A DNA stretch of 20,364 bases. Source: Bryobacterales bacterium (GTDB lineage Bacteria > Acidobacteriota > Terriglobia > Bryobacterales > Bryobacteraceae). The translations under genes and the position numbers were made by a program. Below the pieces are notes generated by a model, which was not told where the DNA came from, made no database searches, and worked only from the letters and a program-made list of their open reading frames with translations. Location of the stretch: positions 1 through 20,364 of the forward strand of contig JANXQZ010001091.1 in the NCBI GenBank assembly GCA_025353235.1, read 5' to 3'. Shown here piece after piece: positions 5,156 to 20,364 of this stretch; position 1 is the first letter of the stretch; every line of letters begins with the position of its first letter.

Positions 5156-7954
5156 ATGCCCCGCCTGATTTCCTGGCTCTTAATCGCGCTCCCTGTTTTC
5201 GCCGGCTCTCCGGTATTCAACGGCAACTTTTCCAACTCGAAGGACTGGACCGTGGTTCGCGGAAGCGCATTCCCTGACCCCTCGGTGCAGAGGCAAGGCC
5301 GGAAGGCTATGCTGCTGGAACCTTTAGAGGCTTCGGACGCATACGTGAAGTCAACGCCCGTGCATCTGGTAGTTGGCAAGCGGTATGAGGTGAGCGGGTA
5401 CGTCCGAACCGAGTCCCTCAGTGTTCAGGATTCGGGCAGGACTCCCGTGGCGGTGGGTGCCTCGCTATCCATGGCTTCTATGCCGTTCGATATGCATTCG
5501 GAATCGGTGGGCGGCACGCATGAGTGGACCCGCCTCCGTCTCCGCTTCGTGGCTACCCGCGCCGATGACAGCATCGTGCTCAAGGTTGCTGAGGGCGCGT
5601 CGTTCCGGGGCAAGGCATGGTTCGAGGGAGTCGCCATCGACGAGGTATCGGGCGAGGATGCATGGCCGGTGAAAGCTGCCGTTCGCACATTTGGGCCAGC
5701 TTATCGATACCCGCAAGGCGGCTGGATCTATCTGCACCTGCAGGGCGAGCCGTACGAGCGCGGGTACCAGCATGGGAACCTGATGGCGAAGGAAATCCCC
5801 CAATACTTAGAGCGCTGCGCTTCCGATTACGATCCGCAATGGAAGGATTGGAAGGAGGCGCGCAACATCGCCAATGCTTTATTCCTGCGCGGCTTCGACC
5901 AGGAGATTCTGCAGGAGATGAAGGGGATCGCGGATGGAGCGTCCGACGCGGGTGCGAAATGGCAGGGTCGGCGCATCGACTTGATTGACATCGTGACCGC
6001 CAATACGATCGTTGAAATGGGGGAGCTGCGGGCGGCTTTGCCGATGACGCCCACTGGGCTTGAGGCTCTGCATCTGACGTCGCCGCAGTACTTCAATCGC
6101 AACCGCGATGTGCCGATCACGGAACGTTGCAGCGCTTTCGCGGCCACTGGAAAGGCCACTCGCGACGGCAAAATGGTGGTGGCTCATACGACTTTTTGGC
6201 CGCTTACCCTGGCCGAGCAAACCAACGTGATGCTCGACATTCAGCCGACCAAGGGCCATCGTCTGTTGATGCAGAGTTATCCAGGAGGCATCGAGAGCGG
6301 CACGGACTGGTACCAGAACGATGCGGGCATCGTACTGACGGAGACCACCATTCGCCAAAGCCCGTTCAACGCGGAAGGCGCGCCGATCGCGTACCGCGCT
6401 CGCAAGGCGATTCAATATGCAGACAATATTGACCAAGTGGTGGAGCATCTCTCGACTAAGAACAACGGCCTGTATACGAACGAATGGCTGATTGGCGATG
6501 CGAAGACGGACGAGATCGCAATGTATGAGCTAGGCACTCAGAGGTCGAAACTTTGGCGGAGCGGGAAGAACGAATGGTTCGGCGGGACCGAGGGGTTTTA
6601 CTGGGGCTGCAATAATGCCAAGGATCTGAATGTGCGGCTCGAGTATTTGCCCGATCCAAAGGGCTCGCCCGAGCATGTCCCGTATGTTGCATCGGAGCGC
6701 GACCTGAAGTGGCAAGCGATGTACGCGCAATATAGCGGCAAGATCGACGAGCAGTTCGCGTTTCTGGCGTTCCGCACTGCGCCTCTGGTCAGCTCGTCTG
6801 CGATGGATGCCAAAGTGGTGACGTCGGCGATGGCTGCCAAGCTGATGGTTTGGGGCGTATTTGGAAAGCCGAACGAACGCGAATGGGTCCCTTCGGAATG
6901 GCAAAAGCAGGGGTATGCGAAGAACGACGGGATTTACTCGTCGGGGTACCGGCTATTCAGCGTGGATGCATCTGAATCGTTGCGTGGTGCGATTCGTGAG
7001 AATGAGGCGGCTCGCCTCGAAGCCAAAGCCGCGACTTTGCCGGAGAAGGATTCGAAGCCTTCCAAGGGTTATCGGAACCGGCTTTGGAAAGGGTGGATCT
7101 TGCCGGCTTCGGACGCGGATACCTGGTTCTCTGCAGGTTCGGCGGCCTATTATGAGGATCTTGGATCGGAGGATCTCGATAAGGCGATGGCTGCGCACTG
7201 GACGGAATATCGGCGGCTCAAGGCTGACTCACGGAGCGAGATCGACAGGTTCGACATCGAGAGGCATCGCGGCGTGATCTTGCTGGATTCGCTGCGCCGG
7301 GGAATGGGCGACGATCGTTTCTTCGACACCATGCGCGACTACTTTGCGGCGAATACGACGAAGCCGGTGAGCGCCCAGGCGTTCTTGGAACAGGCGAAGA
7401 CGACGGCTACCATGCCTGTCGATAAAGGCGGACCTGAATACCTGGCGCAAGACTTCATGCACCGGCTGCCGAGCGCCATGATCGTGTACGGAACTATGAC
7501 GGACGCGTGCGCGAATCGGTACGCAGCGGAGCAGTTGCAGCTTCATTATCTGGATCGGTTTGAAGCGGCGATACCCGTTCGCAAGGACTTCGAAGTGTCC
7601 GACGCGGACCTTGCTTCGCATGACGTTTTGTTTGTGGGGAGGCCAGAGACGAATTCGGCCATCGCGCAATTCCGCCATCGGTTGGACCTGAATTATGAGG
7701 GCGGCAGCTTCCGGCTTAACGGCACGGACCACGCTTCGGAGACTGAGGCGCTGGTGTTGGCCGTCGCGAATCCTTTGGATGCTAGGCATATGTTTCTCAT
7801 TTTGGCGGGCAACAGTGCGCTGGAAACTGTGCGGCTGGCGTCGGCTCGGTTTGGCCGGGTGGAGTATGGGATTTTTGGTTCGGGATGCATGACGGAATCG
7901 GGATTTCGCACGGGTGCAGCGGCGAGCAAGGAAGCGACGTTCTCACAGAGGTAG
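5156..7954 (+). CDS. Secreted C45/phospholipase B-like Ntn-hydrolase with N-terminal carbohydrate-binding-like and C-terminal M1-like regions
   Basis: This 932-residue protein starts with a signal peptide (MPRLISWLLIALPVFAG). Residues about 18-165 look like a jelly-roll carbohydrate-binding module (FNGNFSNSKDW; YEVSGYVRTE; WTRLRLRFVA; AWFEGVAIDEV). Residues about 190-520 resemble the C45 acyl-transferase/phospholipase B-like family. They contain LQGEPYERGYQHG, MKGIADGA, ERCSAFAATGK with Cys325 as the predicted autoproteolytic nucleophile, then YQNDAGIVLTETTI and NEWLIGDA. Such enzymes self-cleave before the cysteine and hydrolyse or transfer acyl amide or ester bonds. The tail from about 640 (AHWTEYRRLK; LLDSLRRGMGDDRFFDTMRD) resembles the C-terminal helical part of M1 peptidases but has no zinc HEXXH motif. 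No clear ribosome binding site is present. The PSD1 gene follows after 5 bases, so co-transcription is likely. The substrate is unknown. Confidence 0.75.
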   Translation: MPRLISWLLIALPVFAGSPVFNGNFSNSKDWTVVRGSAFPDPSVQRQGRKAMLLEPLEASDAYVKSTPVHLVVGKRYEVSGYVRTESLSVQDSGRTPVAVGASLSMASMPFDMHSESVGGTHEWTRLRLRFVATRADDSIVLKVAEGASFRGKAWFEGVAIDEVSGEDAWPVKAAVRTFGPAYRYPQGGWIYLHLQGEPYERGYQHGNLMAKEIPQYLERCASDYDPQWKDWKEARNIANALFLRGFDQEILQEMKGIADGASDAGAKWQGRRIDLIDIVTANTIVEMGELRAALPMTPTGLEALHLTSPQYFNRNRDVPITERCSAFAATGKATRDGKMVVAHTTFWPLTLAEQTNVMLDIQPTKGHRLLMQSYPGGIESGTDWYQNDAGIVLTETTIRQSPFNAEGAPIAYRARKAIQYADNIDQVVEHLSTKNNGLYTNEWLIGDAKTDEIAMYELGTQRSKLWRSGKNEWFGGTEGFYWGCNNAKDLNVRLEYLPDPKGSPEHVPYVASERDLKWQAMYAQYSGKIDEQFAFLAFRTAPLVSSSAMDAKVVTSAMAAKLMVWGVFGKPNEREWVPSEWQKQGYAKNDGIYSSGYRLFSVDASESLRGAIRENEAARLEAKAATLPEKDSKPSKGYRNRLWKGWILPASDADTWFSAGSAAYYEDLGSEDLDKAMAAHWTEYRRLKADSRSEIDRFDIERHRGVILLDSLRRGMGDDRFFDTMRDYFAANTTKPVSAQAFLEQAKTTATMPVDKGGPEYLAQDFMHRLPSAMIVYGTMTDACANRYAAEQLQLHYLDRFEAAIPVRKDFEVSDADLASHDVLFVGRPETNSAIAQFRHRLDLNYEGGSFRLNGTDHASETEALVLAVANPLDARHMFLILAGNSALETVRLASARFGRVEYGIFGSGCMTESGFRTGAAASKEATFSQR

Positions 7955-7959
7955 CGACC

Positions 7960-10719
7960 ATGCGCAGCTTTAATACAGGGTCAAGCCGGCTAGAAAGCCG
8001 GCTGCAGCCAGGATTGGCTGCCCCACAAAGCAGCCTAGCCGCAACGAAATTCCGTCGCGAGTGGAGAAGAAATCAGGATGATGTAGTACTAAGCAAGAAA
8101 TTGGAGCTCTCATGTAAGGATGATGGATCACTATTTTGGTTGCAGCTATGCTTTGTGGGGCAGCCAATCCTGGCTGCAGCCGCCTTTCTAGGCGGCTTCC
8201 CCCTCCTTCACGCAGAAGACCCGGCCGAATTTTTCGAAATGCGAATCCGCCCGGTGCTGGCGAAAAATTGCTACAGCTGCCATACCGGCACGCAGATGGG
8301 GGGCCTGCAACTCGATACCCGCGAACATATCCTACAAGGCGGCAAATCGGGACCAGCCTTAATCCCAACCAACCCCGAAGCGAGCCTACTCATCCAGGCA
8401 GTCCGTCAAACTCACGCGCGCATAAAAATGCCGCCCGGAGGCAAGCTTAAGGACAGCGAAATCGCGGACCTCGAGACGTGGGTGAAGGCAGGAGCAGCGT
8501 GGGGCTCGACGGCGGCACCCATCAAGACTCCTGAGTACGTAATTACTCCAGAACAGCGCGCCTTCTGGTCATTTCAGCCAGTGAAGAATCCCGCGCCGCC
8601 TAGCGTAAAGGACCGCGCCTGGGCAAAATCGCCCATCGATGGCTTCGTTCTTTCAAAGCTCGAATCGCAAGGAATGAAACCCGCGCGAGCCGCCGGCAAG
8701 CAAGCCCTGATCCGCCGCGTCACCTACGATCTCACGGGACTGCCACCAACGCCTGAAGAAGTAGACGCGTTCGCGAAAGATGGCGCGCCAAGCGCTTATG
8801 CCAAAGTTGTCGACCGGCTGCTCGCATCGCCGCGCTACGGCGAGCGTTGGGGGCGCTTTTGGCTGGACGTCTCCCGCTACTCGGACGACAAGCTCGACTC
8901 AGAGCGCGAGGCTGCCTATCCTAACTCGTTCCGCTACCGCGACTGGGTGATCAAGGCTTTCAACGACGACATGCCCTACGACATATTCGTAAAGGCGCAG
9001 ATCGCAGGCGACCAGTTCCCCGCGAAGGAACGTGAAAAAGTGGAACCGGGCCTGGGGTTCTACGCTCTCAGCCCCGAGTTTCAAGACGATCGCGTGGATG
9101 CTACCACGCGGGGGTTCATGGCCATAACGGTGGCCTGCGCCCAATGTCACGATCATAAGTACGATCCGATTCCAACCAAAGATTACTACTCGTTGCTGGG
9201 CATATTCGATGGCACACAGTTGTCGGAGCATCCTCTTGCGCCGTCGGCGGACGTCGATGCCTTCAAAGCAGCCAAGAAAAAAGTGGATGATCGAAAAGCG
9301 GCCATCGCCGACTTCATCAAAGTTCAAAATATCGCGCTTGCGGAAGTGCTGGCGGTCAACACCGCCGAGTATCTTCGGGCTGCGGCTGGCCAGAAGCCAA
9401 AGGCCAAGCTGGACGACGAAACACTCACACGCTGGAAGAAATACCTGGATCGATCGGACCTGGAACACCCTTTTCTGAAAGATTGGAAGAAGCAGGATTT
9501 CGATAAATTTCAAGCGCTGGTGCTGGTTGCCAATGCCGACAAGAAGCGGATCGACGACGAGAACAAGATCCGTCTTGGGCTGAATCCCGACCGAGACCAT
9601 CTGGCGTCTGCGGATCTAGTCGCGCTGGAACGCGACAAGTTTGTTCTATGGCGGGACCTGTTTGGCGACAAGGGCATTCTGCATTACGCGGACAAAGATA
9701 TTGATCGCTTCCTGGCACCCATCTTCAAAGAGCGGCTGGATGGAATGCGGGCTGAGTTTGCATCGCTCGAAAAAGCGCTGCCTGCGCAGTATCCGTTCCT
9801 GCAAGTGATCGCCGATAAGGAGCACCCCGGAAACGGGCGCGTGCATCTCCGGGGCAGCGCGGAAAACCTGGGCGATGAAGTGCCGCGTCACTTCCTGAGC
9901 ATTCTGTCCAAGGCTCAACCGGCGGCGTACAAGAACGGCAGCGGACGGTTGGAACTGGCTGACGATATCGCGAGTGCCGACAATCCGCTCACCGCGCGCG
10001 TGATGGCGAATCGCATTTGGGCGCATCATTTCGGACAAGGACTGGTGCGCACGCCAAGCAACTTCGGGCAGTTGGGAGATCGGCCCAGCCATCCCGAACT
10101 GCTGGATTATCTCGCATCTCGATTGGTTGCGAACCACTGGTCCATCAAGGCTATGCAGCGGGAGATTCTGCTTTCAAACGCGTATCGAATGAGCACCGAC
10201 TTCAACGCGGAACATTTCGCGAAGGACCCGGCCAATCGTCTGCTGTGGCGCGCGAATCGGCGGCGTTTGGACGTGGAAGCGATGCGCGATTCGTTCCTCG
10301 CCGTGTCCGGGGCGCTGGACCTGTCCCCTTGCGGTAAGGCGGAGAAATTGACGGATGAGAATAAGCGCAGGACAGTGTACGGCTTTGTGAGCCGCCGCAA
10401 GCTCGATGGCACGCTCGGCCTGTTCGATTTTCCGAATCCGAATTCCACCAGCGAACAGCGGATGGATACGAACGTTCCGCTACAGCGCCTGTTCTTTCTC
10501 AATAGCGGATTTATCATGCAGGAGTCACGCCTGCTAGCCGCGCGCTTGGGACCGCTGAAGGATGACCGCGCTCGTATTGACCAGGCCTACCGGCTCTTAT
10601 TTACCCGGCTGCCCACGGATGCGGAACGTCAGCTTGGCCTCGATTTCCTGAAGACCGGCGCATGGCCGCAGTACGCGCAAGCATTATTCAGTTCGAATGA
10701 GTTCAGTTTTGTGGAGTGA
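7960..10719 (+). CDS. PSD1-type secreted cytochrome c (PSCyt1, DUF1549, DUF1553)
   Basis: From the ATG at 7960 this is 919 residues. A PSCyt1 c-type cytochrome domain comes first (FFEMRIRPVLAKNCYSCHTG, haem motif Cys104-Cys107-His108; distal Met in KMPPGGKL). DUF1549 follows (WSFQPVKNPAPPSVKD; YDLTGLPPTPEEVDAF) with a second CXXCH at 393-397 (CAQCHDHKYDPI). DUF1553 is C-terminal (NPLTARVMANRIWAHHFG, about 675 onward). The family is paired with DUF1501 genes in Planctomycetota and Acidobacteriota and is probably periplasmic; the biochemical role is unproven. The start is uncertain. ATG 7960 has AGAGG eight bases upstream, but then the hydrophobic export segment sits at residues 66-83. ATG 7885 overlaps the previous gene by 70 bases, while TTG 8101, TTG 8140 or GTG 8155 would put a signal peptide first. 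The first 80 codons lie largely in a composite repeat (7984-8197). Confidence 0.88.
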   Translation: MRSFNTGSSRLESRLQPGLAAPQSSLAATKFRREWRRNQDDVVLSKKLELSCKDDGSLFWLQLCFVGQPILAAAAFLGGFPLLHAEDPAEFFEMRIRPVLAKNCYSCHTGTQMGGLQLDTREHILQGGKSGPALIPTNPEASLLIQAVRQTHARIKMPPGGKLKDSEIADLETWVKAGAAWGSTAAPIKTPEYVITPEQRAFWSFQPVKNPAPPSVKDRAWAKSPIDGFVLSKLESQGMKPARAAGKQALIRRVTYDLTGLPPTPEEVDAFAKDGAPSAYAKVVDRLLASPRYGERWGRFWLDVSRYSDDKLDSEREAAYPNSFRYRDWVIKAFNDDMPYDIFVKAQIAGDQFPAKEREKVEPGLGFYALSPEFQDDRVDATTRGFMAITVACAQCHDHKYDPIPTKDYYSLLGIFDGTQLSEHPLAPSADVDAFKAAKKKVDDRKAAIADFIKVQNIALAEVLAVNTAEYLRAAAGQKPKAKLDDETLTRWKKYLDRSDLEHPFLKDWKKQDFDKFQALVLVANADKKRIDDENKIRLGLNPDRDHLASADLVALERDKFVLWRDLFGDKGILHYADKDIDRFLAPIFKERLDGMRAEFASLEKALPAQYPFLQVIADKEHPGNGRVHLRGSAENLGDEVPRHFLSILSKAQPAAYKNGSGRLELADDIASADNPLTARVMANRIWAHHFGQGLVRTPSNFGQLGDRPSHPELLDYLASRLVANHWSIKAMQREILLSNAYRMSTDFNAEHFAKDPANRLLWRANRRRLDVEAMRDSFLAVSGALDLSPCGKAEKLTDENKRRTVYGFVSRRKLDGTLGLFDFPNPNSTSEQRMDTNVPLQRLFFLNSGFIMQESRLLAARLGPLKDDRARIDQAYRLLFTRLPTDAERQLGLDFLKTGAWPQYAQALFSSNEFSFVE
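7984..8030 (+). repeat. Two-hairpin REP-like repeat, copy A
   Basis: 47 bases: stem AGCCGGCT, loop AGAA, stem AGCCGGCT, then stem GCAGCCA, loop GGAT, stem TGGCTGC, then tail CCCACAAAG. The same unit occurs inverted at 8151-8197 and directly at 17853-17898. It is read in the PSD1 frame as SRLESRLQPGLAAPQ. Confidence 0.9.
8151..8197 (-). repeat. Two-hairpin REP-like repeat, copy B (inverted)
   Basis: On the minus strand it differs from copy A at exactly two bases: the first stem is AGCCGCCT/AGGCGGCT instead of AGCCGGCT/AGCCGGCT. The two changed positions pair with each other, so the stem is preserved. It encodes the hydrophobic FVGQPILAAAAFLGG of the PSD1 leader on the plus strand. Confidence 0.9.
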
Positions 10720-16204: not shown

Positions 16205-17778
16205 AGCGGAGAACCATCGAGGCGGCCATTTGCCTGCTCCTCGCCGTCACGGTTGCGTTCGTTTACGCTCGCGTAACTCATTACTCGTTTATCAACTTCG
16301 ACGACTTGGCATACGTGTATGGAAACCCGCACGTCACCTCCGGCCTGACCTGGAGCGGTATCAAGTGGGCTTTTCTGACCACGGATTACATCTACTGGCA
16401 GCCGATTACTTGGCTCTCCCATATGCTGGATGTTCAATTTTACGGACTCAATGCAGGTGGGCACCATGCCACGAACGTGGGTCTGCACATTTTCAATACG
16501 ACCCTGCTGTACTTCGTATTGCGTTCGTTTAAGTTGGCGATTTGGCCCAGCGCGCTAGGCGCGGCTGTTTTTGCTCTGCACCCCTTGCGGGTTGAATCGG
16601 TGGCCTGGGTTGCCGAGCGCAAGGATGTTCTCAGCGCGTCGTTCTGCCTGTTGACGATCCTGGCTTACATCGCCTACGCGAAGGCGCCGTCGCGATCGAA
16701 ATACTTCGCGGTCTGCGGACTGATGCTGTTAGGGCTGATGTGCAAACCGTCGCTCGTCGTCATCCCGCTGATGTTGCTCTTGCTGGACTTCTGGCCGCTC
16801 GGACGCGGCGGATTGGGATCGCGGCTCTTGGTCGAAAAGGTTCCGCTATTTGGGATGGCTGCTCTCTCGAGCGCCGTCACGCTCTGGGGACAGTGGAAAG
16901 GCGGAGCCATCGCCCAGGTTCCCCTGCTCACCCGAATCGAGAACGCTTTCACCGCGTATTCGATGTACATTCGCAAAACAATCTGGCCGGACAGGCTTGC
17001 AATCTTCTATCCGTATCGCACGGACATTGTGGGATGGCGGGTGCTCGGCGGGCTGATCGTGCTTGCGGGTATTACGTGGCTTGTTTTCGATCAACGAAAG
17101 AAGCGGCCCTATCTCGCGTTTGGCTGGCTGTGGTTCCTCATCGTTCCGCTTCCAATGATGGGCTTCGTGCAAGCGGGCCAGCAAGCGTTCGCTGACCGCT
17201 TTACTCACTTGGCCGCAATCGGCGGAGCGGTGATTGTTGCATGCGGCTGCGCTGAAATATCGAGCCGGATTCATCCGGCGATGCTGACTGCGGCCGGGCT
17301 TCTGATCGTCTCGGCGCTGGCCTGGAGTTCGCGAACCCAACTCCAATTTTGGCAGAATAACTTCACGCTTTACGAGCATGCCCTCGCTGTCACCAACAAC
17401 AATTACCTGGCGCATTACAATCTGGGCCAAGCGCTGGAAGAAGGCGGCAAGAGCAATGCAGCTATGGAGCACTATGCCGAGTCAGTACGCATCAATCCGG
17501 ATCTGGCCGAGGGTCATTACAGTCTCGGCACCTTACTATTTGCGCGCGGGGATGTGAGCGGATCAGAGGCGCAGTTCGCCCAAGCTCTTGATCGAAAACC
17601 CGAGTTCGCCGACGCGCACTACGCGCTGGCGCTAGTGCTATTGCGAGAAAACAAGCCGGATCAGGCCGCTCCGCATTTGTCGGATGCGCTCCGGCTGAAT
17701 ATTGGACCTCAGTATGCCGCGGAGTGCCGTAGAATCTTGGCCGAGCCGCAAACTGTTGCTGCGAAGGGAACTAAATGA
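16201..17778 (+). CDS. GT-C-fold glycosyltransferase-like membrane protein with C-terminal TPRs
   Basis: This 525-residue polytopic protein resembles the TMTC/O-mannosyltransferase-like group. The first transmembrane helix (about 7-24) is followed by a loop with the acidic pair Asp34/Asp35 (INFDDLAYVYGNPHVT), which in GT-C enzymes binds the metal or lipid-linked donor. Then come conserved motifs WQPITWLSHMLD, GLNAGGHHATNVGLHIFN, HPLRVESVAWVAERKDVLS, CKPSLVVIPL and QQAFADRFTHLA, with roughly 9-11 membrane helices. The end (about 400-501) holds three tetratricopeptide repeats (YLAHYNLGQALEEGGKSNAA; AEGHYSLGTLLFARGDVSGS; ADAHYALALVLLRENKPDQA). Such proteins are predicted to glycosylate exported proteins using polyprenyl-phosphate sugars. 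Acceptor and sugar are unknown. The gene overlaps both neighbours by ATGA (16201-16204 and 17775-17778). An upstream in-frame ATG at 16153 is inside the previous gene and rejected. Confidence 0.85.
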   Translation: MKRRTIEAAICLLLAVTVAFVYARVTHYSFINFDDLAYVYGNPHVTSGLTWSGIKWAFLTTDYIYWQPITWLSHMLDVQFYGLNAGGHHATNVGLHIFNTTLLYFVLRSFKLAIWPSALGAAVFALHPLRVESVAWVAERKDVLSASFCLLTILAYIAYAKAPSRSKYFAVCGLMLLGLMCKPSLVVIPLMLLLLDFWPLGRGGLGSRLLVEKVPLFGMAALSSAVTLWGQWKGGAIAQVPLLTRIENAFTAYSMYIRKTIWPDRLAIFYPYRTDIVGWRVLGGLIVLAGITWLVFDQRKKRPYLAFGWLWFLIVPLPMMGFVQAGQQAFADRFTHLAAIGGAVIVACGCAEISSRIHPAMLTAAGLLIVSALAWSSRTQLQFWQNNFTLYEHALAVTNNNYLAHYNLGQALEEGGKSNAAMEHYAESVRINPDLAEGHYSLGTLLFARGDVSGSEAQFAQALDRKPEFADAHYALALVLLRENKPDQAAPHLSDALRLNIGPQYAAECRRILAEPQTVAAKGTK

Positions 17779-20364
17779 GCTATCGAATTCTACTTTCTTG
17801 CGTGGGTCTGGCCGGAATTTTATTCTGGTGCACGTCCGAGCCGCAGGAAAAAAGCCGGCTGGAAAGCCGGCTGCAGCCAAGAATGGCTGCCCCACAAGTC
17901 GCGGGCTATGGGCGTGTGCCTCTAGCTTTTGAGACGAATGCGGGGCAGTCCGATTCACAAGTTGAATTTCTTTCAAGAGGGGACGGTTACAATCTTTTCC
18001 TCACACGAAGGGAAGCGGTGTTGAGCCTGCATCGCAAGGACCGCCAGGCCGTCGTGCGCATGCAGTTCGTGGGCGCGAACACGCAGCCCAAGATTCGCGG
18101 ACTGGATCGACAATCGGGAGTCAGCAATTATCTAATCGGCAACGATCCTTCCAAGTGGCAGCGCAACGTCGCCAATTACGGCAAGGTGGAATACGGCGCG
18201 GTCTGGCCTGGGATCGACATAGTGTACTACGGCAGCCAGCGCAATCTCGAGTACGACTTCGTGGTCGCGCCCGGCGGCGATCCAGGGCAGATTCGGATGA
18301 AGATGGCCGGCGCGACGAAGCTTCGTCTGGCGTCCGATGGCAGCCTCCTTGTCGACGTGCAGGGCGGGACGCTCACGGCGCATGCGCCGGTGGTGTACCA
18401 GCGCACTTCACTGGGGCAGAAGAGGGTGGCTGGGCGCTACACGCTGGACAGCCAATCGGAAGTGGGCATTGCAGTAGAGAACTACGACCGCGCCAACACG
18501 CTGGTGATCGACCCGATCTTGTCGTATTCCACCTATCTCGGCGGCAGCGGAGACGACATCGGCACGGGCATCGCAGTGGACGCGGCCGGCGCTGCATACG
18601 TGGTCGGCTATACCAATTCGCCTAATTTTCCGCTCGCTAACCCCTTCCAGAGCGCACAGTTCGGGGGCGTGGATGCTTTCGTAACCAAGATCAATGCGGC
18701 CGGGTCGGCCTTGGTCTATTCAACGTATTTGGGCGGAAGCAATCTGGATCGAGGCAACGCCATCGCAGTGGACGCAAGCGGCGATGCTTACATTACCGGG
18801 GCTACCAGCTCGCCGAATTTCCCTCGCGTGGGCTCTATCGCGAGCATGCAAAACTCTTTGCGTGGGACGACCAATGCCTTCGTTACAGTCTTAAATCCGA
18901 GCGGAACGCCCACCTTCTCCACTTATTTTGGCGGCAGCCAAACGGATTCGGGGAACGCCATCGCCGTGGACGCTGCGAAGAACATCTACATCGCCGGCTC
19001 AACCACCTCGTCCGATTTTCCGTTAATGAATGCCATCTTGTTCGAGGGGGGAATGGGCAACGGGGATGCGTTTATCGCTAAGATCGCCACCAGCAATTCC
19101 AGTTTGGTGTACTCAACGCTTCTGGGCGGATCCGCAGCGGATTCGGCTGAAGGCATCGCGTTGGATGCTAGTGCCAACGCTTACGTAACGGGCGTGACAT
19201 CCTCTACGGACTTCCCCCAAATTTCCCCGCTTCAGTCCTTATACGGAGGCGGAACCTCGGATGCCTTCCTGACGAAGATCAATGCGGCTGGCAATGGGTA
19301 TGTGTACTCTACGTTTATCGGCGGGAGCGGTGCTGACGACGGTATGGCCGTCACGGTTGACGGGTCCGGGAACGCCTATGTGGCGGGCTCCACCGCTTCA
19401 GGCAATTTCCCTCTAGTCAACCCGCTGCAATCGACTTTTAGCAGCAAAGCTGGATTTGCCTCTAAGGTGGGTCCCTCCGGGTCGTCATTAGTTTATTCCA
19501 CCTATCTGGGCAACGATCTAGCGGCTGCAATCAAGGTGGATGCGTCGGGCAACGCCTATGTGGCCGGCAGCACGTCCGGAACTACGCTTCCCTTGGCGAG
19601 TCCGATCCAATCCACGTCCGGCATTCTCAACACATTCATTACGGTTCTATCTACTGCTGGCAATACAACGCCGTTTTCAACGCTGCTCGGCGGAAGCAAG
19701 CAGCAAAGAGCTTTGGGACTTGCTCTTGACACCAACAAGAACATCTACGTAACAGGATTCACCAACTCCAGCGACTTCCCCCTTCAGAATCCGATCCAAT
19801 CCACCTACGGCGGAGGGTCTGCGGGCGCGATTCCAGTTGGCGATGCGTTCGTGGTAAAAATACTGAACACGCAAGCCACTCTTGCCACCACGGCTGGGAC
19901 ACCCCAATCCACGTTTACAGGCACGGCATTTCCCACGGCGCTGCAGGTGACGGTGCGGGATGGCAGCAACGCGCCCATTCCCGGGGTAACGGTCACATTC
20001 ACGGCACCTTTTACATCGGGACCCACCGGAACATTTGCGGGCGGATCGTTTACAGCAACGGCGAATACCAATGCGAGCGGAGTTGCCACTGCTCCCGTGT
20101 TCACGGCCAATTCCTCGGCGGGAGCATTCGTGGTGAACGCGACCGTTCCAGGAATCGGAACTGTCGGCGCATTCAATCTTACGAATCTTCCGGGTCCGGC
20201 ATCCATCACAGCCACCGCCGGAACGCCTCAGACGGTCAGAATAAGCACCGCTCTGCCTGTCGCGCTGCAGGCTACGGTTCGAGATAACACGAACAGTCCG
20301 GTTAGCGGTGTCTCAGTTACATTTACGGCACCTGCTTCGAGCGGCACGTTTGCCGCGGGTGGGC
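17775..20364 (+). CDS. Giant secreted SBBP-propeller and Ig-repeat protein (partial, 3' end outside window)
   Basis: The frame from ATG 17775 stays open for 863 codons to the window edge. A hydrophobic export segment comes first (SYRILLSCVGLAGILFWC), then a 15-residue insert encoded by the repeat at 17853-17898. Next is the N-terminal domain common to SBBP proteins (about 42-248: LAFETNAGQSDSQVEFLSRG; YGSQRNLEYDFVVAPGGDP; TLVIDPILSY). Seven SBBP units follow (18525-19865, pattern YSTYLGG...G.AIAVD..GNAYV.G.T...FP), enough for one closed seven-bladed propeller. Tandem Ig-like domains follow (19866 on; VTVRDGSNAPIPGVTVTFTA), the second cut by the window. The protein is rich in Thr, Ser, Gly and Ala, has few charges in the repeat part and lacks any enzyme motif, as expected of a cell-surface or secreted adhesin-like protein. 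The start overlaps the GT-C stop, so the two are coupled. The Cys19 context (FWC) is not a good lipobox. Confidence 0.88.
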   Translation, partial: MSYRILLSCVGLAGILFWCTSEPQEKSRLESRLQPRMAAPQVAGYGRVPLAFETNAGQSDSQVEFLSRGDGYNLFLTRREAVLSLHRKDRQAVVRMQFVGANTQPKIRGLDRQSGVSNYLIGNDPSKWQRNVANYGKVEYGAVWPGIDIVYYGSQRNLEYDFVVAPGGDPGQIRMKMAGATKLRLASDGSLLVDVQGGTLTAHAPVVYQRTSLGQKRVAGRYTLDSQSEVGIAVENYDRANTLVIDPILSYSTYLGGSGDDIGTGIAVDAAGAAYVVGYTNSPNFPLANPFQSAQFGGVDAFVTKINAAGSALVYSTYLGGSNLDRGNAIAVDASGDAYITGATSSPNFPRVGSIASMQNSLRGTTNAFVTVLNPSGTPTFSTYFGGSQTDSGNAIAVDAAKNIYIAGSTTSSDFPLMNAILFEGGMGNGDAFIAKIATSNSSLVYSTLLGGSAADSAEGIALDASANAYVTGVTSSTDFPQISPLQSLYGGGTSDAFLTKINAAGNGYVYSTFIGGSGADDGMAVTVDGSGNAYVAGSTASGNFPLVNPLQSTFSSKAGFASKVGPSGSSLVYSTYLGNDLAAAIKVDASGNAYVAGSTSGTTLPLASPIQSTSGILNTFITVLSTAGNTTPFSTLLGGSKQQRALGLALDTNKNIYVTGFTNSSDFPLQNPIQSTYGGGSAGAIPVGDAFVVKILNTQATLATTAGTPQSTFTGTAFPTALQVTVRDGSNAPIPGVTVTFTAPFTSGPTGTFAGGSFTATANTNASGVATAPVFTANSSAGAFVVNATVPGIGTVGAFNLTNLPGPASITATAGTPQTVRISTALPVALQATVRDNTNSPVSGVSVTFTAPASSGTFAAGG
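17853..17898 (+). repeat. Two-hairpin REP-like repeat, copy C, in frame inside the SBBP gene
   Basis: Stems are identical to copy A (AGCCGGCT/AGCCGGCT and GCAGCCA/TGGCTGC); only the loops (GGAA, AGAA) and one tail base differ. It is translated as SRLESRLQPRMAAPQ, the same frame and nearly the same peptide as copy A in the PSD1 gene. Confidence 0.9.
18525..19865 (+). repeat. Seven SBBP protein repeats (beta-propeller blades)
   Basis: Blades begin at about 18525, 18717, 18915, 19110, 19305, 19494 and 19674, with spacing of 180-198 bases. Each opens with a variant of YSTYLGGS, continues with a D-x-x-x-N-A-Y-V-x-G core and N/D-F-P, and ends with DAFVTKIN. Blades 6 and 7 are shorter and more divergent. 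The similarity is at protein level and diverged at DNA level. Confidence 0.85.
19866..20364 (+). repeat. Tandem bacterial Ig-like (Big_1-type) domains, second one incomplete
   Basis: Two copies of about 105 residues begin near 19866 and 20185. Both contain ATAGTPQ or TTAGTPQ, ALQ-V/A-TVRD, P-V/I-x-GV-x-VTFTAP and GTFA-A/G-GG. More copies probably follow outside the window. Confidence 0.75.

Follow-up and report, generated by a model that had tools for sequence, protein, structure and literature searches.

The question raised by this stretch of DNA is why the same pair of small hairpins occurs in it three times. The stretch, called the window below, is positions 1 to 20,364 of contig JANXQZ010001091.1 from a Bryobacterales bacterium (GenBank assembly GCA_025353235.1), and the three repeats, copies A, B and C, each consist of two adjoining hairpins (hairpin 1 and hairpin 2) and a CCCAC foot. 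We consider it very probable that they belong to a GTGG-tagged, double-hairpin family of repetitive extragenic palindromic (REP) elements linked to the single REP-associated tyrosine transposase (RAYT) gene, of the HUH/Y1 type, that we found elsewhere in the genome. Behind this answer stand the size of the family, the covariation of its stems, the layout of its doublets, a RAYT gene with inverted copies at both ends, the correspondence of hairpin tips to RAYT clades, and a gene junction at which a doublet is present in one member of a genus and absent in another. The parts of the three copies are as follows.

7984..8003, + strand: copy A, hairpin 1, AGCCGGCT-AGAA-AGCCGGCT, from the pattern match and fold
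8004..8021, + strand: copy A, hairpin 2, GCAGCCA-GGAT-TGGCTGC, from the fold and the genome-wide family
8022..8026, + strand: copy A, CCCAC foot, which is GTGGG on the − strand, a REP-type tag (tag rule in the available text of PMC6006769)
8027..8095, + strand: copy A, tail, resembling a repeat of about 62 nt found 3' of 50 of 146 copies, an indicative count because the consensus was drawn by eye from the same copies (score 108 compared with a shuffled maximum of 31)
8130..8154, − strand: copy B, short tail, whose score of 34 is barely over the shuffled maximum of 31
8155..8159, − strand: copy B, CCCAC foot, GTGGG when read on the + strand
8160..8177, − strand: copy B, hairpin 2, from sequence and fold
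8178..8197, − strand: copy B, hairpin 1, AGCCGCCT-AGAA-AGGCGGCT, with a compensatory C-G pair
17853..17895, + strand: copy C (hairpin 1, hairpin 2 and CCCAC), in frame within the open reading frame (ORF) 17775..20363

By eye, A (7984-8026, + strand) and B (8155-8197, − strand) are alike over about 47-49 bases except at positions 6 and 15 of hairpin 1, and these two positions pair with each other, as G-C in A and C-G in B, so that the change is compensatory; the differences between C and A are confined to the two loops and the tail (by eye). The initial annotation had described the copies in these terms, and their sequences bear it out on both counts. The hairpin-1 pattern at up to 3 mismatches has 6 matches in the window (three elements, each counted on both strands) compared with 0.11 expected. 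Folded as single-stranded DNA, each copy forms two hairpins at –18.2 to –18.7 kcal/mol, with z scores of –5.3 to –6.0 for A, B and C and 0 of 200 shuffles equally stable.

The window is one contig (C993) of a draft genome (G000) of 5.3 Mb that is divided into 1247 contigs and 89.5% complete. In this genome, we found that the hairpin-1 pattern has 70 matches at up to 2 mismatches, some elements being matched on both strands, and that the pattern of hairpin 2 plus CCCAC has 155 matches at up to 2 mismatches on many contigs, 81 on one contig strand and 74 on the other; control patterns for hairpin 1 and hairpin 2, written backward, had 0 matches in the same genome. Contig ends fall within tens of bases of some copies, as expected of repeats that break an assembly. 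Stem pairing was followed in a structural sample of 150 copies, collected from fetched loci by a hairpin-2 search that allowed up to 4 mismatches and forming a subset of the copies in the genome; 147 of them were used and 3 at contig edges were left out. At the best placement of hairpin 1, 8 of 8 pairs form in 95 copies, 7 in 32, and 6 or fewer in 20. The loop ends in AA in 135 copies, and hairpin 1 is fully paired in 93 of these, with 9 different fully paired stems. Hairpin 1 of the 135 copies has a mean of 7.563 of 8 pairs as compared to 6.525 (maximum 6.741) when the arms were re-dealt 1000 times, a comparison in which the placement, picked for best pairing, favours the observed mean and the shuffling of arms ignores relatedness. 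The variable pair of hairpin 2, both sides of which are free in the pattern, is Watson-Crick in 139 of the 147 copies (86 C-G and 53 G-C). The initial annotation had suggested counting both hairpin patterns across the genome and had predicted a large REP family with conserved stem pairing; the counts, their empty controls and the covariation of the stems uphold that prediction.

Read on the opposite strand, the element is GTGG-G-hairpin 2-hairpin 1, which is the layout of a REP with a GT[AG]G tag. The rule in the available text of PMC6006769 places GTAG or GTGG 0-2 nt upstream of a basal stem that is 7-20 nt long and paired throughout, with a loop of 2-5 and at least 3 G/C in the first four stem bases; A and B both agree with it (GTGG-G-GCAGCCA-ATCC-TGGCTGC), and the 155 matches on many contigs amount to the dispersed high copy number of a REP. 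Selection for stop-free reading in all six frames was considered separately and rejected: the copies have 4.98 of 6 frames open compared with 4.91 in dinucleotide shuffles (maximum 5.05), and the number of fully open copies, 47 of 147, lies between the mean (43.5) and the maximum (55) of the shuffles, which is no better than chance.

How the copies are paired bears on the further proposal that A and B are the inverted ends of one transposable unit of about 214 bases, similar to a miniature inverted-repeat transposable element. Close pairs among the 150 copies are head-to-head in 41 cases (one overlapping, with spacings that cluster at 42 and 73), tail-to-tail in 4 and on the same strand in 2. 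Because head-to-head pairs dominate, the recurring paired form is GTGG-hairpin 2-hairpin 1-spacer-hairpin 1'-hairpin 2'-CCAC, a REPIN-like doublet, and the family has the frequent inverted doublets of REPs. The A/B pair of the window is itself not such a doublet; it is one of the 4 tail-to-tail pairs, a rare arrangement. A and B are indeed inverted and near-identical, their tails give some inward similarity, and three further tail-to-tail pairs were found, but only 4 of the 47 close pairs have this orientation, and the distances between their blocks of hairpin 2 and foot (26, 109, 128 and 138 bases) and their interiors differ. No target duplication was seen by eye at the borders of the A/B pair, and the inward similarity that had been taken as the sign of a unit is the tail repeat, which is present beside the 50 copies mentioned above and also adjoins copies in other arrangements. 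A 214-base unit is thus very unlikely, and this part of the initial annotation did not hold; we read A and B as two solo copies that lie tail to tail in the 5' region of a gene.

The tail follows CCCAC directly in the 50 copies whose scores exceed every shuffled one. When up to 3 mismatches are allowed, a 34-base piece of the tail has 3 matches in G000, every one of them beside a copy of the element; therefore the tail belongs with the element, and we dropped the idea of an independent dispersed repeat. We also observed that the tail sometimes extends over more than one unit (window 8027-8095, L012, L203 and L208), and that G000 has a recurrent composite doublet (L186, L196, L199 and L211), about 119 bases long or a little longer, whose centre is partly conserved and GGGTACAAATACTCTCTGACAGCCCGG-like.

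If the repeats are REPs, which transposase goes with them? In G000, we found one Y1_Tnp match, on contig C749 (locus L009). Its ORF is bounded at both ends by inverted copies of the element, and hairpin 1 of the downstream copy contains its stop codon. A Y1 transposase flanked by the same hairpins, which the initial annotation had proposed as a search target, is therefore present, and a RAYT-linked REP family is supported because the sole Y1 gene found in the genome is the one flanked by inverted copies. From an internal ATG the protein is 184 aa long; it carries the RAYT motifs NHVH (HUH) and YIEQNP (catalytic Tyr) and scores 29.8 bits with Pfam Y1_Tnp (cut-off 23). Its nearest solved relative is TnpAREP (PDB 4er8, E 8.9e-5), and a protein search gave 3526 relatives at E ≤ 1e-20; among the 120 listed, many are named RayT or transposase. 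A second genome, G037, has two RAYT units (L222 and L223) with the same layout, in which the hairpin 1 base is recoded from A-T to C-G and both genes again end inside hairpin 1 of the downstream copy. A RAYT flanked by its cognate repeats is thus found at three loci (L009, L222 and L223). Inverted doublets at high copy number could also arise if the elements were bounded by the ends of a DDE transposase; however, the same ends flank the Y1 RAYT in G000, the same layout flanks RAYTs in other genomes, and no target duplications were seen at the pairs viewed by eye, although no search was made for DDE transposases with these ends. We regard this explanation as the least likely of those considered, with hardly any probability left to it.

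To describe the repeats at other RAYT genes, we examined 70 RAYT matches from genomes of the family (30 given loci and 40 more that were fetched), a subset of those listed, in which the HUH motif is present in 68 and Y[IVL]..NP in 60. Under a strict rule, two adjoining hairpins followed by C[CT]AC (the GT[AG]G foot on the other strand), a double hairpin is found upstream at 25 loci, downstream at 24, on both sides at 15 and on at least one side at 34, while 0 of 2800 mononucleotide-shuffled flanks satisfy the rule. Where double hairpins lie on both sides (15 loci), the upstream and downstream elements have the same hairpin-2 arm in 12 and the same hairpin-1 arm in 8. Of the 24 downstream double hairpins, 16 have a hairpin 1 that starts ahead of the point where the protein match ends or within 3 nt of it.

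The stems vary between loci, and the two hairpins of one element tend to have the same tip. When each locus contributes one element (n=34), the longest stretch shared by the two tips has a mean of 4.56 bases as compared to a maximum of 3.85 in 5000 re-pairings, and the loops are identical in 8 of the 34 elements as compared to a maximum of 6. The agreement of hairpin 1 with hairpin 2 is concentrated in the three uppermost pairs (0.65, 0.71 and 0.53 within elements compared with 0.27, 0.39 and 0.29 between classes); there is none at pairs 4 (0.71 compared with 0.68) and 5 (0.18 compared with 0.17) and little at pair 6 (0.74 compared with 0.60), a between-class comparison that is partly circular because the classes were named from the tips, while the re-pairing test is not circular. 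At the base, GC[AG][GC] is present in hairpin 2 of 47 of 49 elements and in hairpin 1 of 5 of 49.

The RAYT tree comprises 69 proteins, one short row having been excluded, and 34 of its rows were labelled with seven tip classes. The classes require 8 changes (minimum 6) compared with a shuffled mean of 21.9, and 0 of 200 shuffles were as low; the classes were named by hand, the labels come only from double-hairpin loci, and near relatives raise the clustering. Tip classes A (that of the window), B and F each form one supported group, classes C and D take 2 changes each, and class E is scattered, with 4 changes. That the tips track the transposase tree also argues against an explanation in which the hairpins are kept for a role in RNA, as transcription terminators or mRNA stabilisers, and spread only passively. 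The hairpins are stable, and roles of REPs in termination and mRNA stabilisation are proposed in the available text of PMC3733652; however, matches lie on both contig strands, one copy lies inside an ORF, no T run was seen 3' of the hairpins in the copies viewed by eye (no terminator scan was made), and the window has no Rfam family at gathering score. We dropped an Rfam RNA identity on this last result, and we think an RNA role improbable as the reason for the family.

For the RAYT-linked REP family, comparison of the sequences points to a mechanism in which the RAYT would bind the element as a folded single strand, by way of the loop and upper stem of its hairpins, would cut near the GTGG foot, and would mobilise doublets in trans. 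More tentatively, and with somewhat more doubt than belief, we suggest a repeated tip code in which the loop and top three pairs of both hairpins may be a recognition module and the lower stem and GT[AG]G foot a fixed scaffold, so that RAYT clades would switch both tips together.

To see how repeats and transposases are distributed, we sampled 121 genomes of the family from a larger group. Of these, 25 contain the hairpin-2 pattern with no more than 1 mismatch, and 50 contain a RAYT relative at E ≤ 1e-20. A RAYT match of at least 250 bits is present in 7 of the 13 genomes with at least 10 copies, compared with 3 of the 108 others (Fisher p 2.8e-6), where both cut-offs were set after the lists had been viewed, G000 is among the 7, and the test ignores relatedness. 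Two genomes of one genus, G076 (27 copies) and G001 (1 copy), differ at a junction between two genes: G076 has a 97-base doublet there, and the flanks of this doublet, once joined, align with a single stretch of G001 at 87% identity. Because G001 carries a different short palindrome at that junction, this is a presence/absence difference and not a perfectly empty site. A second junction that we compared (L257 and L295) has strongly diverged flanks. The palindrome at the G001 site is GTAGGCCTCCTGGCCTGC, which coexists with two-hairpin elements and was seen at L248, L252 and L259 in G076 and at L294 in G001.

Several observations weigh against a RAYT-linked, double-hairpin REP family. In addition to the palindrome in G001 and the cut-offs and unmodelled relatedness behind the Fisher test, the L009 protein scores 70.4 bits with NCBIfam REP_Tyr_transpos, under the cut-off of 80, and other RAYTs may be missed because G000 is incomplete. 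Hairpin 1 of the downstream (3') copy in G037 is slightly imperfect, 36 of the 70 RAYT loci have no double hairpin under the strict rule, and 58 of the 150 copies have no partner found within 400 bases. In the window's own tip class, the loops agree only partly (nGAA compared with nGAT). Finally, 6 of the 13 copy-rich genomes (G048, G066, G086, G120, G076 and G107) have no RAYT match of at least 250 bits, which RAYT loss after the spread of the repeats could explain. The best RAYT matches in G076 (C64:2934-3468) and G107 (C659:45985-46386) are pieces only, and these pieces possibly reflect decay after the repeats had spread.

Copies B and C each touch a coding frame.

7885..10719, + strand: ORF with PSCyt1-PSCyt2-PSD1, whose frame ahead of the mature part passes through copy B
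17775..20363, + strand: ORF with DUF7948 and SBBP repeats, which runs off the window and contains copy C

Copy C encodes SRLESRLQPRMAAP in frame, after an N-terminal hydrophobic segment and ahead of DUF7948. An alignment with 20 selected relatives shows a variable linker at this place, and none of the 120 relatives listed contains SRLESRLQP when up to 2 substitutions are allowed. Copy B (in the region 7885-8230 of the window) encodes part of a hydrophobic stretch (VGQPILAAAAFLGG) ahead of the mature PSCyt protein, where 12 orthologues viewed by eye mostly have an ordinary leader; the stretch, including the residues from copy B, is a candidate signal peptide with an uncertain start codon. A clean 214-base insertion into this ORF was tried and rejected, since removing 7984-8197 leaves no in-frame start just upstream (by hand). 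Among named genomes, the best matches of the PSCyt/PSD1 protein are from Solibacteraceae, Bryobacterales and other Acidobacteria metagenome-assembled genomes, at up to 60% identity.

How does the family compare with systems already described? We compared it with the available text of several papers: PMC6006769, which classifies the transposases and gives the REP rules; PMC3733652 (Di Nocera et al. 2013), on TIRYT/TIRtron elements; PMC8266576, which treats E. coli, S. maltophilia and Marinomonas and in which the importance of loop and foot varies in degree; and PMC3686654, in which REP classes depend on cognate RAYTs. As in REP/REPIN-RAYT systems (PMC6006769, PMC8266576 and PMC3686654), the GTAG/GTGG tag is 0-2 nt 5' of the stem, doublets are inverted, a RAYT lies between cognate repeats and REP classes go with RAYTs; in contrast to them, each unit here has two adjoining hairpins, the second of which echoes the tip of the first. 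TIRYT/TIRtron elements are alike in having a RAYT-like gene between inverted repeats, of which some are double palindromic and some recur in the genome, in including an Acidobacteria transposase group, and in flanking repeats that may overlap the gene end. Some of their terminal inverted repeats carry GGGGWSAS, whereas the foot in the window's family is GTGGGGCAG, and the available text of PMC3733652, which reports no obvious correlation between transposase genes and repeat families, describes for them neither a GT[AG]G foot nor tips that are common to both hairpins and follow the RAYT tree, as we find here. The TIRYT transposases, subclass 2.1 of TnpAY1 in PMC6006769, have a C-terminal helix-turn-helix-type extension, whereas the L009 protein matches only Y1_Tnp in Pfam up to E 1. 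The Class 3 TnpAY1 of Planctomycetes and Acidobacteria (PMC6006769) include members from the same phylum as our family and have high-copy secondary structures around Y1 genes, about 600 in Solibacter usitatus, a species whose numerous short repeats are also reported in the available text of PMC3174227; however, their motif is YV[VI][AENY]EQ (Y----Q) with a CnGA foot, compared with YIEQNP and a GTGG foot here. In the accessible text that we searched, we saw no report of two hairpins per REP with a common tip.

REP repeats are widespread in bacteria, and the way in which a RAYT recognises its repeats is understood in only a few. The family is ordinary in kind, a RAYT-linked REP family with double hairpins; its architecture and the correspondence between tip and transposase are what make recognition testable, as the shared tips and the natural tip variants along RAYT clades are ready-made swaps for such tests. 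If the tip code is true, the specificity of a RAYT could be predicted from its hairpin tips and swapped by them. For the organism and its relatives, these data document a RAYT/REP population in probable Acidobacteriota, including a presence/absence difference between congeners and copies that enter coding frames.

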